This document shows positions 12,204-28,581 of a stretch of DNA of 34,957 nt, piece after piece. Each line of letters opens with the position of its first letter. The stretch's first letter is position 1. Where the stretch lies: NCBI GenBank assembly GCA_021813365.1, contig JAKALB010000014.1, positions 1 to 34,957 of the forward strand, in the 5' to 3' direction. A program made the position numbers and the translations under genes. The stretch comes from Pseudomonadota bacterium (GTDB lineage Bacteria; Pseudomonadota; Alphaproteobacteria; Rhodobacterales; Rhodobacteraceae). The notes beneath the pieces were generated by a model. That model was not told where the DNA came from. It did not search any database and worked only from the letters and a program-made list of their open reading frames with translations.

Positions 12204-15044
<2,841 letters not shown>

Positions 15045-15527: not shown

Positions 15528-16646
15528 TCAGCGTTTGTAGGAAGTGGGGTGGAAAGGCAGCGGGGCGACGCTGACAGGCAGCCGCTTGCCGCGCACCTCG
15601 CCCGTCAGCGCCGTGCCGGGCGCGGCCAGGGCGCGCGGCACATAGGCCATGGCGATCGGCCCATCGACCGAAGGACCGAAGCCGCCCGAACAGATCACGC
15701 CCACCTGGGCGTCACCGTCATAAAGCGCCGTGCCGTCGCGCATCGGCGCCCGGCCGGCGGGACGCAGGCCGACGCGCAGCCGCGCCGGGCCGTCGCGCAG
15801 CTCGCCAAGGATGCGCTCCGCGCCGGGAAAGCCGCCCGCGCGCGGGCCTTCGCGGCGCGATTTCTGGATGGCCCAGCCAAGCCCCGCCTCGACGGGCGAG
15901 GTCGTGGTGTCGATGTCATGACCGTACAGGCACAGGCCCGCCTCCAGCCGCAGCGAATCCCGCGCCCCCAGACCGATCGGCAGCACCTCGGCCATGGCCA
16001 GCAACTGCCGCGCAAAGCCTTCAGCCTGCGCCTGGGGCAGCGAGATCTCGAAACCGTCCTCGCCGGTATAGCCCGACCGGCTGACCCAGACATCGCCGAA
16101 CACGCCCACATCCATGAACCGCATCGCCGTGACCTGTGGCACCAGCCGGGCCAGCGCCCGTTCGGCCAGCGGGCCTTGCAGGGCCAGCAGTGCGCGGTCG
16201 GTCACCGGGATCACCTCGGCCACAGCCGACAGATGCGCCTGCATATGGGCGATGTCCGCCGCCTTGCAGGCTGCATTCACCACCACGAACAGATGATCGC
16301 CGCGGTTGGCGAACATCAGGTCGTCCAGAATGCCGCCGGTGGCATTGGTGAACAGGCCATACCGCTGCCGCCCCCGCGCCAGCCCCGCCACATCCACCGG
16401 CATCAGCGCCTCGAACCCCGTCACCAGCGCCGCCATGTCGCCCGACGGCCCGGATCGCGGCCGCAGGATCACCTGCCCCATGTGGCTGACATCGAACAGC
16501 CCCGCTGCCGCGCGGCAGTGCAGATGCTCCTTCATCACGCCGGCGGGGTATTGTACCGGCATCTCGTATCCGGCGAAGGGCACCATCCTGCCGCCCAATG
16601 CCACATGCAGGTCATGCAGACCCAAGCGCAACAGCCCATCGGCCAT
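15528..16646 (-). CDS. gcvT: Aminomethyltransferase, T protein of glycine cleavage
   Basis: Folate-dependent enzyme of 372 residues that takes the methylene carbon from the GcvH-bound intermediate to make 5,10-methylene-tetrahydrofolate and releases ammonia. Visible family segments are MVPFAGYEMPVQYPAGVMKEH, LFDVSHMGQV, the folate-pocket region SRSGYTGEDGFEI and ARDSLRLEAGLCLYGHD. The ATG at 16646 is used because the upstream in-frame codons run into the riboswitch. First gene of the operon. Confidence 0.96.
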   Translation of the reverse strand: MADGLLRLGLHDLHVALGGRMVPFAGYEMPVQYPAGVMKEHLHCRAAAGLFDVSHMGQVILRPRSGPSGDMAALVTGFEALMPVDVAGLARGRQRYGLFTNATGGILDDLMFANRGDHLFVVVNAACKAADIAHMQAHLSAVAEVIPVTDRALLALQGPLAERALARLVPQVTAMRFMDVGVFGDVWVSRSGYTGEDGFEISLPQAQAEGFARQLLAMAEVLPIGLGARDSLRLEAGLCLYGHDIDTTTSPVEAGLGWAIQKSRREGPRAGGFPGAERILGELRDGPARLRVGLRPAGRAPMRDGTALYDGDAQVGVICSGGFGPSVDGPIAMAYVPRALAAPGTALTGEVRGKRLPVSVAPLPFHPTSYKR

Positions 16647-16680
16647 AAGCCGCCGTCCTTCCTGCCGGATTGGTCGCACC

Positions 16681-16717
16681 GGCACCGTGCAAACGGGAAA
16701 CCCCCGTCCTCGGTGCC
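16681..16717 (-). promoter_or_regulatory. Probable expression platform of the glycine riboswitch
   Basis: GGCACCG (16681-16687) pairs with CGGTGCC (16711-16717), with an inner ACGGG/CCCGT pair. The hairpin begins within the 3' edge of aptamer 2, so it and the aptamer end may exclude each other. No T run follows, so control may be by RNA folding near the start codon 35 nt away rather than by simple termination. Confidence 0.45.
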
Positions 16718-16890
16718 CCCTCTGTCCCTGCCCGATCGGGCGCCTGAGATCGTTATCCCTTCGGCGGGCGCATCCGCGCCACTCTCCAGAGTCTTTCACA
16801 GGACGGTCCTTGCGCCTGAGAGTTTACCGGGGCGGTTGCTCCTTCGGCACCGGGCCGGGCCCTGCGGCCTTCCCCGGTTCTCCCGTTCCT
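16716..16890 (-). ncRNA. Tandem glycine riboswitch
   Basis: Two glycine aptamers in series in the gcvT leader. Aptamer 1 (about 16890-16801) contains GGGAGA, GCCGAAGGAGCAACC, CTCTCAGGCGCAAGGACCG. Aptamer 2 (about 16793-16716) contains CTGGAGAG, CCGAAGGGATAACG, ATCTCAGGCGC and GGGACAGAGGGGG. These are the conserved core strings of the class. Binding of glycine normally turns gcv expression on. Aptamer 2 is somewhat divergent: GATAACG replaces the usual GGCAAA-like segment. Confidence 0.93.
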
Positions 16891-16898
16891 GCGCGGCC

Positions 16899-24914: not shown

Positions 24915-24943
24915 TTGTCAGGTCGGGGGGCGGCGGCTAGGGT
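24915..24943 (+). promoter_or_regulatory. Predicted promoter of the MORN-repeat gene
   Basis: TTGTCA (24915-24920), 17-nt spacer, TAGGGT (24938-24943), start expected near 24950, leaving a short leader with GGGAG before the ATG at 24969. Confidence 0.5.
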
Positions 24944-24968
24944 TCCGCCGGCAAAGCGGGAGTTGAAG

Positions 24969-26489
24969 ATGGCGGGTCAAGTCGGTCGTTCGACGGGGAT
25001 GCTGATCCTGGCCGCGGGTCTGGCCGCGGGTCTCGGCTGGGGCCTGCCCGGTGCGGGAATCGCGCAGGATACGGGCCAGATCATCACCAAGACCTATGAC
25101 GACGGCTCGGTCTATGAGGGCACGTTCAAGAACGGCCGGCAGGACGGCACCGGCACCTATACCCTGCCCAACGGCTTTACCTATGTCGGCGAATGGGTGG
25201 CCGGCGAGATCAGGGGCAAGGGCCGCGCCAAATATCCGAACGGGTCGATCTACGAAGGCGAATTCGCCAAGGGCAAACCCGAGGGGCAGGGCAAGATCAC
25301 CTTCGCCGACGGCGGCACCTATGAGGGGGACTGGAAGGACGGCGCGATGACCGGAACGGGCCGCGCCACCTATCCCGATGGCTCGATCTACGAGGGCACG
25401 TTCCGCAACGGGCAGCGCAACGGGCAGGGCACGCTGACCACCCCCTCGGGCACGGTCTATGTCGGAACCTGGGTAAACGGAGCCAAGAACGGCAAGGGCA
25501 CCATCACCTATGCCGACGGCACCCGCTATGAAGGCACCTTCCGGGCCGATCAGCGGGACGGCGCGGGCACGCTGACCATGCCGGACGGTCTCACCTATAC
25601 CGGCGACTGGAAGGCCGGGCAGATCACCGGCACCGGCACGCTGAAGGAGCCGAACGGCGACATCTACGCGGGCGCCTTCGTGAACGGCCAGCGCGAAGGC
25701 CAGGGTCGGGCGAATTTCGCCAACGGCGACAGCTATGTGGGCGGCTACAAGGCCGACAAGCGCCACGGCAAGGGCAAGTTCACCGCCAGGGACGGCTCGT
25801 CCTACGACGGCGACTGGGTGGCCGGCCACATGGAGGGCCAGGGCAAGATGGTCTATGCCGACGGCTCGGTCTACGAAGGGACGTTCAAGGCCGATCTGCC
25901 GGATGGCATGGGCAAGATCACCTATCCCGACAAGTCTACCTACGAGGGCGGCTGGGTCAGGGGCGCGATCACGGGACAGGGCAGATCCACCTATGCCAGT
26001 GGCGCGGTCTATGAGGGCAGCGTCGTGGACGGCAAGCCGGACGGCCAGGGCAAGATGACCTATCCCGACGGCTATGTGTATGACGGCCAGTGGAAAGCCG
26101 GTGTGCGCGAGGGCCAGGGAACTGCCACCTATGCCGACGGCACGGTCTATACCGGCGGTTTCGTGGCGGGTCTGCGCGAGGGCAGGGGCAAGCTGACCAT
26201 GCCGAACGGCTTCACCTATGAAGGCGACTGGAAGGCGGGCGAGATGACCGGCATGGGCATCGCCACCTATCCGGGCGGCGAAGTCTATGAAGGTGCCTTC
26301 GTCGGTGGCAAACGCGAGGGCCTGGGCAAGCTGACCTACAGGAAAGGCGAGGTCAGCGAGGGTATCTGGAAGAACGGCATCCTGATGGGCCCGCCCCCCA
26401 CGCCCGGCACCGGGCCGGATGTGCAGACCCCGCCCGCGAATGGCACCGCTGCACCCTCCGGCGGAACGGGCGGCGGGTCGGGCGGCTGA
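24969..26489 (+). CDS. Exported MORN-repeat protein, 18.5 repeats
   Basis: Protein of 506 residues. Residues 1-32 are a signal peptide or membrane anchor (MLILAAGLAAGLGWGLPGAGIAQ), so the rest is probably periplasmic. From residue 48 to about 471 there are 18 full MORN units and a partial nineteenth, each exactly 23 residues with the pattern YEG-aromatic-x-x-G-x5-G-x-G. The sixth residue mostly alternates Phe/Trp, giving a 46-residue super-period whose phase slips at units 9-11. The tail (GPPPTPGTGPDVQTPP..., GGTGGGSGG) is Pro/Gly-rich. MORN sheets act as scaffolds and may bind lipids or proteins; here no partner is evident. The ATG at 24969 has GGGAG 6 nt before it. Confidence 0.9.
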   Translation: MAGQVGRSTGMLILAAGLAAGLGWGLPGAGIAQDTGQIITKTYDDGSVYEGTFKNGRQDGTGTYTLPNGFTYVGEWVAGEIRGKGRAKYPNGSIYEGEFAKGKPEGQGKITFADGGTYEGDWKDGAMTGTGRATYPDGSIYEGTFRNGQRNGQGTLTTPSGTVYVGTWVNGAKNGKGTITYADGTRYEGTFRADQRDGAGTLTMPDGLTYTGDWKAGQITGTGTLKEPNGDIYAGAFVNGQREGQGRANFANGDSYVGGYKADKRHGKGKFTARDGSSYDGDWVAGHMEGQGKMVYADGSVYEGTFKADLPDGMGKITYPDKSTYEGGWVRGAITGQGRSTYASGAVYEGSVVDGKPDGQGKMTYPDGYVYDGQWKAGVREGQGTATYADGTVYTGGFVAGLREGRGKLTMPNGFTYEGDWKAGEMTGMGIATYPGGEVYEGAFVGGKREGLGKLTYRKGEVSEGIWKNGILMGPPPTPGTGPDVQTPPANGTAAPSGGTGGGSGG

Positions 26490-26779
26490 ACGCCGGCGCC
26501 CCCCGGACCGACGCGCTCCGGACCACCGCCCCCATTCCACCACCCCCGAACCACCACCCCCAGGCCGCACCGGGATGCTGCGCCCGCGCCCGTTGCAGAG
26601 CGATACGGGCACAACCCCGCGGGCCGGTCTGGCCGCATCCGGCGCCGCGACAGGCCACCGGGCACCATCGCGCCGACATGGGCCATGTGCTGCGCGGCCG
26701 AGCCGCTGGCGCCCGCGGGCAGCCTGGATCAGACGACCGGCCCGACCCCGGATTTTTGCGCCCCGCCCGGCAAATCGCC
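26490..26779. other. Intergenic stretch before the leucine leader
   Basis: Nearly 300 bases without a credible gene. Bases 26520-26562 are strikingly C-rich on the plus strand with CCACC and CCCCC runs (G-rich on the other). No terminator with a T run is evident for the MORN gene. Confidence 0.45.
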
Positions 26780-26810
26780 CTTTTCTTCCCGTAGATCGTG
26801 ATTATAGTCG
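26780..26810 (+). promoter_or_regulatory. Predicted promoter of the leu leader
   Basis: TATAGT (26803-26808), or TAGTCG (26805-26810) which lies exactly 6 nt before the leader ATG at 26817, is a good -10; the -35 (CTTTTC/TTTCTT around 26780-26787) is weak. Transcription would start at or within two bases of the leader start codon. Confidence 0.4.
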
Positions 26811-26816
26811 CGCCCC

Positions 26817-26915
26817 ATGACCAGGGATCCGTCCATCGCCGCCATCTGTCCCGGCCGCCGCCGGGAGCCCGCGCGCGTCTTGGCCTTCGGTCTGCTTCTT
26901 CTTAGCCGCCTCTGA
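26817..26915 (+). CDS. Leucine-rich leader peptide of leuA (attenuator)
   Basis: A 32-codon frame ending ARVLAFGLLLLSRL-stop, with CTG CTT CTT CTT in a row at 26892-26903 and two further leucines (TTG, CTC) close by. Four consecutive Leu codons, three of them CTT, which is scarce in this GC-rich sequence, directly upstream of leuA are the mark of a transcription-attenuation leader. The peptide itself needs no function; ribosome stalling at the Leu codons when charged tRNA-Leu is low would be the signal. No Shine-Dalgarno site is seen; translation is probably leaderless, as I recall for trpL of Sinorhizobium. Confidence 0.82.
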   Translation: MTRDPSIAAICPGRRREPARVLAFGLLLLSRL

Positions 26916-26956
26916 GCGTGCCCAAGGGCGCGACCGCTCGGAGGTGACCAGCGCCC
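26872..26956 (+). promoter_or_regulatory. Competing RNA pairings of the leu attenuator
   Basis: CGCGCGTCTTGG (26872-26883, within the leader codons just before the Leu run) can pair with CCAAGGGCGCG (26922-26932), about 11 bp with one bulge. The latter overlaps GGGCGC (26926-26931), which can instead pair with GCGCCC (26951-26956), and also a small hairpin GAGCG...CGCTC (26914-26939) with inner GCCC-AA-GGGC. A ribosome stalled on the Leu codons would mask the first segment. No T run follows, so the off state may act through Rho or the leuA ribosome site. Confidence 0.5.
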
Positions 26957-26988
26957 GGATGAAGCAACGATTTTCCCGAGGATACGAC

Positions 26989-28581
26989 ATGACCGAAGCG
27001 ACCGCCGCCGCCCCCAAGGCCCAGGACCGCGTCCTGATTTTCGACACCACCCTGCGCGACGGCGAACAAAGCCCCGGCGCCACGATGACCCATGAGGAAA
27101 AGCTGGAGATCGCCGGCCTCCTGGACGAAATGGGCGTCGACATCATCGAGGCCGGGTTCCCGATCGCCAGCGAAGGCGATTTCGCCGCCGTCACCGACAT
27201 TGCCAAACGGTCGAAGAACTCGACGATCTGCGGCCTGGCACGGGCGAATTACAAGGACATCGACCGCTGCTGGGAGGCGGTGAAACACGCCCGCTCGCCC
27301 CGGATCCATACGTTCATCGGCACCTCGCCCCTGCATCGGGCGATTCCGAACCTGGACATGGACCAGATGGCCGAACGGATTCACGACACCGTGACCCACG
27401 CCCGCAACCTGTGCGACAACGTGCAGTGGTCGCCGATGGACGCAACCCGGACCGAGCCTGACTACCTGTGCCGGGTGGTGGAAATCGCCATCAAGGCCGG
27501 CGCCACCACCGTCAACATCCCCGACACGGTGGGCTACACCTATCCGTTCGAATCCGCCAAGATCATCAGGATGTTGCTGGAGCGGGTTCCCGGTGCGGAC
27601 AAGATCATCCTCGCCACCCATTGCCACAACGACCTGGGAATGGCGACGGCCAATGCGCTGGCCGCGGTCGAGGCCGGCGCCCGGCAGATCGAATGCACCA
27701 TCAACGGTCTCGGCGAACGCGCCGGCAACACCGCTCTGGAAGAGGTCGTGATGGCGATGCGCGTGCGCAACGACATCCTGCCCTATCAGACCGGTATCGA
27801 CACGACCAAGATCATGAACCTCAGCCGCCGTGTCAGCGCCGTCTCGGGCTTTCCGGTGCAGTTCAACAAGGCGATCGTCGGCAAGAACGCCTTCCTGCAC
27901 GAAAGCGGCATCCACCAGGATGGCGTGCTGAAGAATGCGCAGACCTTCGAGATCATGCGGGCTGCCGACATCGGCCTGAACGCCAAGAACATCGCCATGG
28001 GCAAACATTCCGGCCGTGCGGCGCTGCGTTCGAAGCTGAAGGAACTGGGTTTCGATCTGGCCGACAACCAGTTGAACGACGTGTTCGTCCGCTTCAAGGC
28101 GCTCGCGGACCGCAAGAAGGAAGTCTATGACGACGACCTGATCGCGCTGGTGGCCGACGAGGCGACCACCGACCAGCACGACACGATCCAGGTCAAGCGC
28201 CTGCGCGTGGTTTGCGGCACCGAAGGCCCGCGCGAGGCCGAACTGACCCTGATCATCGACGGGGTCGAGAAATCGACCGATGCAACCGGCGACGGCCCGG
28301 TGGATGCGGCCTTCAACGCGGTGGACGAGCTGTTTCCGCACCATGCGCAACTCGAGATCTATCAGGTCCATGCCGTGACCGAGGGCACCGATGCCCAGGC
28401 CACCGTGTCGGTGCGCCTGTCCGAAGACGGGCGCATCGCCACAGGCCAGTCGGCCGACACCGATACCGTGGTGGCCAGCGTCAGGGCCTATGTGAATGCG
28501 CTGAACCGCCTTCTCGTGCGCCGCATGAAGTCCGCGCCCGACAGCGACGTGAAATCGGTCAACTACAAGGATGCGGTCTGA
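26989..28581 (+). CDS. leuA: 2-isopropylmalate synthase
   Basis: First committed enzyme of leucine synthesis, condensing acetyl-CoA with 2-oxoisovalerate; 530 residues. The catalytic barrel starts with the signature FDTTLRDGEQSPGA (18-31) and includes HCHNDLGMATANALAAVEAG with metal-binding histidines and NGLGERAGN. The C-terminal regulatory domain (from about residue 390) that binds leucine is present, so feedback inhibition is likely in addition to attenuation. The ATG at 26989 has GAGGA 6 nt upstream. Length and motifs are those of the common bacterial LeuA1. Confidence 0.97.
   Translation: MTEATAAAPKAQDRVLIFDTTLRDGEQSPGATMTHEEKLEIAGLLDEMGVDIIEAGFPIASEGDFAAVTDIAKRSKNSTICGLARANYKDIDRCWEAVKHARSPRIHTFIGTSPLHRAIPNLDMDQMAERIHDTVTHARNLCDNVQWSPMDATRTEPDYLCRVVEIAIKAGATTVNIPDTVGYTYPFESAKIIRMLLERVPGADKIILATHCHNDLGMATANALAAVEAGARQIECTINGLGERAGNTALEEVVMAMRVRNDILPYQTGIDTTKIMNLSRRVSAVSGFPVQFNKAIVGKNAFLHESGIHQDGVLKNAQTFEIMRAADIGLNAKNIAMGKHSGRAALRSKLKELGFDLADNQLNDVFVRFKALADRKKEVYDDDLIALVADEATTDQHDTIQVKRLRVVCGTEGPREAELTLIIDGVEKSTDATGDGPVDAAFNAVDELFPHHAQLEIYQVHAVTEGTDAQATVSVRLSEDGRIATGQSADTDTVVASVRAYVNALNRLLVRRMKSAPDSDVKSVNYKDAV

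Follow-up and report, generated by a model that had tools for sequence, protein, structure and literature searches.

An RNA element upstream of leuA in an alphaproteobacterium of the Rhodobacteraceae resembles the LEU element known from Actinobacteria, and the best explanation that we can offer, with a probability of roughly two in three (about 0.68), is that it controls leuA by translational attenuation. This reading, made on sequence comparison, is suggested by leader codons that pair at the Shine-Dalgarno (SD) region, by the missing terminator, by covariation of the stems and by the same design occurring in two phyla. The window, i.e. the whole stretch of DNA that was analysed, comprises 34,957 nucleotides and corresponds to contig C39; the draft genome it belongs to measures 3.36 Mb. 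Its relevant features are as follows.

26803..26808, + strand: -10 hexamer TATAGT of a putative leaderless promoter, 8 nt 5' of the leader ATG (sequence and set-wide spacing)
26817..26915, + strand: leader ORF of 32 codons, MTRDPSIAAICPGRRREPARVLAFGLLLLSRL and stop (read from the window sequence; relatives)
26889..26956, + strand: core matched by the covariance model R1 at 81.4 bits, this sequence itself being among the 80 training sequences
26892..26903, + strand: Leu-codon run CTG CTT CTT CTT (window sequence)
26893..26902, + strand: 5' side of the base stem, lying within the Leu run (comparison and fold; set-wide permutation controls)
26909..26918, + strand: S1, 5' arm CCTCTGAGCG, with the stop codon TGA inside (alignment covariation)
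26919..26922, + strand: inner hairpin P1a, 5' side (alignment)
26926..26931, + strand: S2 (pseudoknot), 5' side GGGCGC (alignment covariation)
26927..26930, + strand: inner hairpin P1a, 3' side, its letters shared with S2 (alignment)
26935..26944, + strand: S1, 3' arm CGCTCGGAGG (alignment covariation)
26951..26956, + strand: S2 (pseudoknot), 3' side GCGCCC (alignment covariation)
26957..26966, + strand: 3' side of the base stem, GGATGAAGCA, mismatched at one position; 22 nt separate it from the leuA ATG and 11 nt from the SD (comparison and fold)
26978..26981, + strand: SD GAGG of leuA (position and spacing)
26989..28581, + strand: leuA, 2-isopropylmalate synthase (NCBIfam NF002087 and TIGR00973, both above cut-off)

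Conservation among related leuA loci

The element was compared across 110 leuA loci, 80 from named genomes and 30 from the window's own genome and its relatives, of which 109 could be anchored on the LeuA signature; L072, at a contig edge, was dropped. For the tests on 104 loci, which include the window, another five (L019, L028, L056, L071 and L107) were set aside, as an ORF scan found no leader near leuA. Three duplicate elements were kept in these tests and removed from alignment A1 (101 sequences), and R1 was built on 80 of the 101 distinct aligned cores, with 10 divergent and 11 near-identical rows left out. By this model, the element is present in 108 of the 109 anchored loci, with a match where one would expect it in 78 of 80 loci from named genomes and in 30 of the 30 others. 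The two misses are L071, whose lack of an element by R1 is counted against our preferred explanation, and L072, which is cut before the region. Most matched loci also trained R1, while the untrained ones include four of the five set-aside loci (L019, L028, L056 and L107), which do carry the element, only farther upstream. The weakest scores, 23.1-29.0 bits, belong to L065, L077, L079 and L080.

The initial annotation had proposed aligning related loci to look for conserved Leu codons and covarying stems, and both are found. An ATG-initiated ORF with at least four Leu in six codons occurs in 93 of the 104 loci, far above reverse complements (2/104) and dinucleotide shuffles (9/520). No more than three Leu among the last nine codons are found in only 2 of these 104 leaders, the C-terminus reads LLLLxxL-stop in 54, the final residue is Leu in 80, and the stop codon is TGA in all 104. 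That the whole is a constitutive structure without a leucine response, kept for mRNA stability or some other purpose, is therefore very improbable: codon choice in the Leu run does follow partly from pairing, but 93 of 104 leaders with such Leu density, ahead of a gene for leucine synthesis, speak against it.

As for the stems, S1, S2 and the base stem all covary in the related loci. Within A1, 97.5% of cells in S1 are paired, with changes on both sides at 3 of its 10 pairs. A conserved pseudoknot follows the Leu run in this 101-sequence set, with 71 cells showing changes on both sides against 25.3 +/- 3.8 in shuffles, and 90.8% of cells paired against 32.8-58.6% with slid partners; the latter controls matter too, as the shuffles do not preserve relatedness. 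In the main helix of S2, 84.4% of cells are paired. Its outer pair shows a change on both sides in 33 sequences and is unpaired in 38, and its innermost counted pair (columns 55-85) is unpaired in 57 of 100. The inner hairpin P1a is paired in 91.8% of cells, with changes on both sides in only 2, and thus has little covariation of its own. Because P1a and S2 make use of the same letters, they are mutually exclusive.

This well conserved S1/S2 core could also serve as the binding site of a protein or other ligand that controls leuA translation, the leader peptide being incidental. In favour of such a ligand are also the few Leu codons in many alphaproteobacterial leaders, and a statement in an earlier study on Actinobacteria that mutation of the Leu codons had no effect on regulation (PMC1262725). 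A pure binding site, however, would not need the leader ORF, the Leu run and the -10 spacing, all of which are conserved. Moreover, the candidate factor ML1624 has close homologs only in Actinobacteria according to the same paper (PMC1262725), which would make it unfit for alphaproteobacterial elements, and we consider a ligand-controlled pseudoknot quite unlikely.

Leader ORF and putative promoter

In the window, the leader runs from the ATG at 26817 to the TGA at 26913-26915, leaving 73 nt between the stop and the leuA ATG at 26989. The sequence thus bears out what the initial annotation had described, a 32-codon peptide with four consecutive Leu codons 73 nt upstream of leuA. That annotation had also called the leader probably leaderless, a reading that the promoter spacing in related loci fits. 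A -10 hexamer that matches TATAAT or TATAGT at 5 or 6 of 6 positions and ends 6-9 nt before the ATG precedes 82 of 103 leaders, compared to about 1.6% at random positions, a background that is somewhat too low since several in-frame starts were tried for each leader and the best score was taken. None of four SD-like motifs sought 5' of the leader start was present in the 82 leaders with a fitting -10. A scan of the window for the sigma-70 consensus returned no promoter, from which it follows that the -35 is not of the consensus type. Taken from these sequence patterns, the leader is probably translated leaderless, from a transcript that would start at or next to its ATG.

The leader is an unannotated short gene, and the RNA element goes undetected by Rfam 15: at gathering score, no family was found at the window element or in the eight related loci scanned, with sub-threshold matches only (E 2.8 and 4.9). 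An alternative leuA start at the in-frame ATG at 26959 is disfavoured, this ATG being absent in the close relatives L084 and L085, while in L086 the frame closes at once. Elsewhere in the window, a MORN protein with 12 MORN repeat stretches is encoded 5' of the leader region (24915-26489, + strand), and a glycine riboswitch aptamer (RF00504, 51.9 bits; 16794-16896, - strand) lies at the start of gcvT (15528-16799, - strand), with gcvP at 12204-15044 (- strand).

Pairing of the Leu run with the SD region

Across the 104 loci, the Leu run, together with the codon that follows, forms base pairs with letters at the SD or immediately 5' of it. The letters of this base stem vary between loci, for example CTTAGC/GCTAAG, CTTACG/CGTAAG, CTAATC/GATTAG, TCCTAAGCC/GGCTTAGGA and CTACTAAGC/GCTTAGTAG. 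Leaders score 1860 with their own partners, against 1549 +/- 26 (maximum 1626.5) in 200 permutations over the 104 loci. An exact 7-mer partner is found in a locus' own downstream region in 48 of 104 cases, compared to 14.0% when the regions of other loci are used, and among leaders without CTTAG in 12 of 48, compared to 5.7%. The remaining 56 of the 104 loci have no exact 7-mer partner, and this we count against the preferred explanation.

Examples with the base stem on the SD itself are L025, L098 and the four cupin-headed loci. The cupin-headed loci (L019, L028, L056 and L107) carry a small gene between the element and leuA, which gave Cupin_2 in both loci tested (L019 and L107); going by a similar upstream peptide, L124 and L127 have the same arrangement. 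All four of those read have the 3' side of the base stem where the cupin gene would have its SD, the paired stretches before the start of that gene being GGCTAAGGA, GCTAAG beside GA, CTAGGA and GGTTAGGA. The element therefore tracks the first start codon of the operon rather than leuA as such. At L015 and L098, further short ORFs 3' of the element overlap the leuA start (stop/start overlap), which suggests translational coupling there.

The initial annotation had placed the first pairing segment just where a stalled ribosome would cover it. This stands in so far as the 5' arm of S1 lies there; what has to be revised is that the Leu codons take part in pairing themselves, and do so with the SD region of the first gene. 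In the window alone, pairing with the SD box is only partial, as the base stem ends 11 nt before the SD. The minimum-energy fold of the window includes the base stem (-43.8 kcal/mol, with 4 of 200 shuffles as stable), and in it 26889-26892 also pair with letters at the leuA start codon. For seven other loci, picked by hand, the minimum-energy fold contains the base stem in 7/7 and S1 in 6/7 (not in L122). Stability was equalled or beaten by 14 (L122), 18 (L107), 28 (L119) and 33 (L019) of 200 shuffles in four of these seven.

The effect of occupying the Leu run was modelled with ViennaRNA, which does not treat pseudoknots, by making the run unavailable in 96 of the 104 loci. The mean predicted openness of leuA positions -22..-6 then rises from 0.506 to 0.624, with 64 of the 96 loci opening by more than 0.02 and 14 shifting the opposite way by more than 0.02, while a control block placed upstream gives a mean of 0.520, with 30 loci up and 22 down. 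When leaders are swapped between loci (6 permutations), the gain is still 0.067-0.095 compared to 0.118 for the native pairs, which indicates that much of the opening is generic pyrimidine-purine complementarity. The window itself shows a shift of just 0.01 when the run is blocked, and this too is counted against the preferred explanation, as are the mismatch in its base stem and the 11 nt between that stem and the SD. The modelled direction would fit a stalled ribosome that opens leuA, while the size of the effect is no proof of it.

Termination or translation

No intrinsic or T-rich terminator was found at 26500-27100 of the window, and in just 9 of the 104 loci does the stretch from the element to leuA include eight consecutive nt with at least five T. 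The absence of a T-rich terminator, already remarked upon in the initial annotation, is thereby confirmed. Pairing of the Leu codons at the SD region would account for it. A possible alternative is transcription attenuation, in which the position of the ribosome decides on Rho-dependent termination, or termination at an unusual hairpin, before leuA, and SD masking is secondary. The leader, its stop codon and the mutually exclusive P1a and S2 do look attenuator-like, and short leuA leader RNAs of 85, 65 and 45 nt are reported for Mycobacterium tuberculosis (PMC3526491). These could reflect premature termination in that species, and are counted against translational attenuation. However, the window has no terminator-like site, T-rich stretches are as rare as stated, and termination would not need the base stem to sit at the SD of the first gene, be it cupin or leuA. 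In addition, much of the 73-nt gap between leader and leuA is predicted to be paired, which would leave little free RNA for Rho. On balance, we regard control by termination as unlikely.

Under translational attenuation, our preferred reading, the transcript would have its 5' end at the leader ATG or directly beside it, and the leader would be translated leaderless. With leucyl-tRNA plentiful, ribosomes would pass through the Leu run and be released at the UGA within S1, after which S1, with either P1a or the S2 pseudoknot, would fold and bring the Leu run beside the region upstream of leuA. The free Leu run would then pair on or beside the SD, a pairing that the comparison supports, and would close it. 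Under leucine shortage, a ribosome halted at the Leu codons would occupy the pairing partner of the SD, so that the SD would be free and LeuA could be made. Such a scheme would require no terminator. The leaderless start, the stalling at Leu codons, the masking of the SD in vivo and the leucine response are the parts of it that we infer.

Comparison with known leader elements

The LEU element, described upstream of leuA in Actinobacteria by Seliverstov et al. (2005, PMC1262725), is made up of a Leu-run leader, a pseudoknot, an alternative hairpin and a base stem in which the Leu run pairs with the leuA SD. In that study it was a computed structure of unknown mechanism; regulation through a bound factor was favoured, orthologs of ML1624 being named, and mutations of the Leu codons were said to be without influence on regulation (its ref. 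22). The element described here shares with it (PMC1262725) the position before leuA, the Leu-run leader ORF, the pseudoknot, the base stem of Leu run and SD and, upon that base stem, an alternative hairpin. It differs in that it occurs in Alphaproteobacteria, before a LeuA of the TIGR00973 kind, whereas the one Streptomyces LeuA tested has IPMS_D2 as its second domain instead of HCS_D2. Furthermore, the stop codon lies inside the 5' arm of S1 here, but 3' of that arm in the five actinobacterial leaders read, and the base stem often lies immediately 5' of the SD instead of covering it.

Seven upstream regions of actinobacterial LeuA genes, taken from plasmid-collection records, were examined as well. 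Five have a recognisable leader, that of Microbacterium beginning with MQFGLLLLSC, and two Streptomyces copies (L115 and L120) have none. With filters off, R1 places four of the five leaders at the top: Tsukamurella (L122, 28.3 bits), Microbacterium (L119, 27.1), Nocardia (L118, 25.7) and Nonomuraea (L116, 18.2). L117, the fifth, gets 11.3 bits, less than two chance matches (13.9 and 13.3). Default filters leave just L119, L118 and L116 (the last at E 0.15, where E-values are rough owing to a shortened calibration) and miss L122. The likeness to the actinobacterial element could be due to convergence, transfer or descent, all of which are possible.

Several related leaders appear in print. LeuL1 of S. 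lividans, MRFGLLLLSCRGEGL and stop, is reported as leaderless and without a typical intrinsic terminator (PMC8079986); the leader of C. diphtheriae reads MNRANLLLLRRGGSQA and stop (PMC5784534), and that of C. glutamicum has four consecutive Leu codons (PMC4046766). In the alphaproteobacterium Sinorhizobium meliloti, the trp attenuator has a leaderless leader peptide, trpL/rnTrpL, as the present element would, but it is a transcription attenuator that yields an sRNA (PMC10117765), unlike the element here, for which no terminator was found. The initial annotation mentions an earlier prediction of leuA attenuation of this kind in alphaproteobacteria; among the full-text matches listed, a scope that leaves most subscription papers outside, none concerns an alphaproteobacterial leuA leader.

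Two further systems lend themselves to comparison. Classical leu attenuators of Gammaproteobacteria combine a leader with Leu codons before leuA, an intrinsic terminator and a four-segment switch; the leader with Leu codons is found here too, but the Rho-independent terminator is not. In mycobacteria, Canestrari and colleagues are said to have described, in 2020, polycysteine leaderless short ORFs on which stalled ribosomes prevent masking of the next ribosome-binding site. These would likewise be leaderless short ORFs with a codon run for the amino acid of the pathway, but reportedly they concern cysteine and other operons, and they are not known to have a pseudoknot.

Distribution beyond Rhodobacterales

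At E 0.01, R1 matches 20 of 385 genomes of the class, and, the window's own match aside, each of the other 19 is followed downstream by a gene that bears the LeuA signature. In a draw from the phylum, 34 of 398 genomes are matched, all 34 in the same class, in a draw that does not list the class of 344 non-matching genomes. A class-wide set of 102 loci was assembled from 15 fetched as R1 hits and 87 chosen by LeuA protein alone, the latter excluding weaker LeuA matches, as well as six LeuA loci that came from the same draw of genomes and had been taken as R1 hits before. By a leader-plus-S1 rule, the leader stop lies in a CCCCTGA-type S1 hairpin in 57 of the 87 LeuA-chosen loci (two of the 57 being duplicates) and in 14 of the 15 R1-chosen ones; as the rule itself uses S1, the presence of S1 in this set is not independent evidence.

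Among the 69 distinct class-wide leaders, 59 fit L-x-L-x-x-P-stop, and 44 have no more than three Leu among the last nine codons. The base stem is seen here as well, with an own-partner score of 1309 compared to 1209 +/- 24 (maximum 1273) in 300 permutations over the 69 loci. S2 is unsupported as a class-wide feature at these 69 loci (own score 1011 compared to 975 +/- 25, permutation maximum 1033.5). With S2 unsupported and 44 of the 69 leaders poor in Leu, leucine sensing is less sure outside Rhodobacterales. These low-Leu leaders, together with the statement on Leu-codon mutations in PMC1262725, are the main facts against leucine stalling as a general signal.

We tentatively put forward a wider picture, one that is rather doubtful as it stands: a single kind of leuA leader that controls translation, in which the sensed codons are themselves the SD-masking strand, may be common to Actinobacteria and a large part of the Alphaproteobacteria, the latter having built the stop into the main stem. 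Outside Rhodobacterales, the leader would have shrunk to L-x-L-x-x-P-stop, and what the switch responds to may be a ribosome kept waiting at the UGA, through slow release or an arrest-type Pro-stop peptide, rather than starvation at a long Leu run. In S. meliloti (L121), where LeuA is of another kind, CTTCTTCTTCTC is found at about 450-660; then come, ahead of leuA, a possible hairpin resembling S1 and GAGAAG. R1 gives this locus only 15.4 bits; the sequence hints at a related leader, with a putative reading frame and start.

Implications

The occurrence of the LEU design in a second phylum provides about 100 divergent sequences that separate what is conserved (the leader, S1 and the base stem to the SD) from what is variable, and argues against a sensor protein confined to Actinobacteria. 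The SD-masking design accounts for the missing terminator, and the mechanism is now testable in Rhodobacter.
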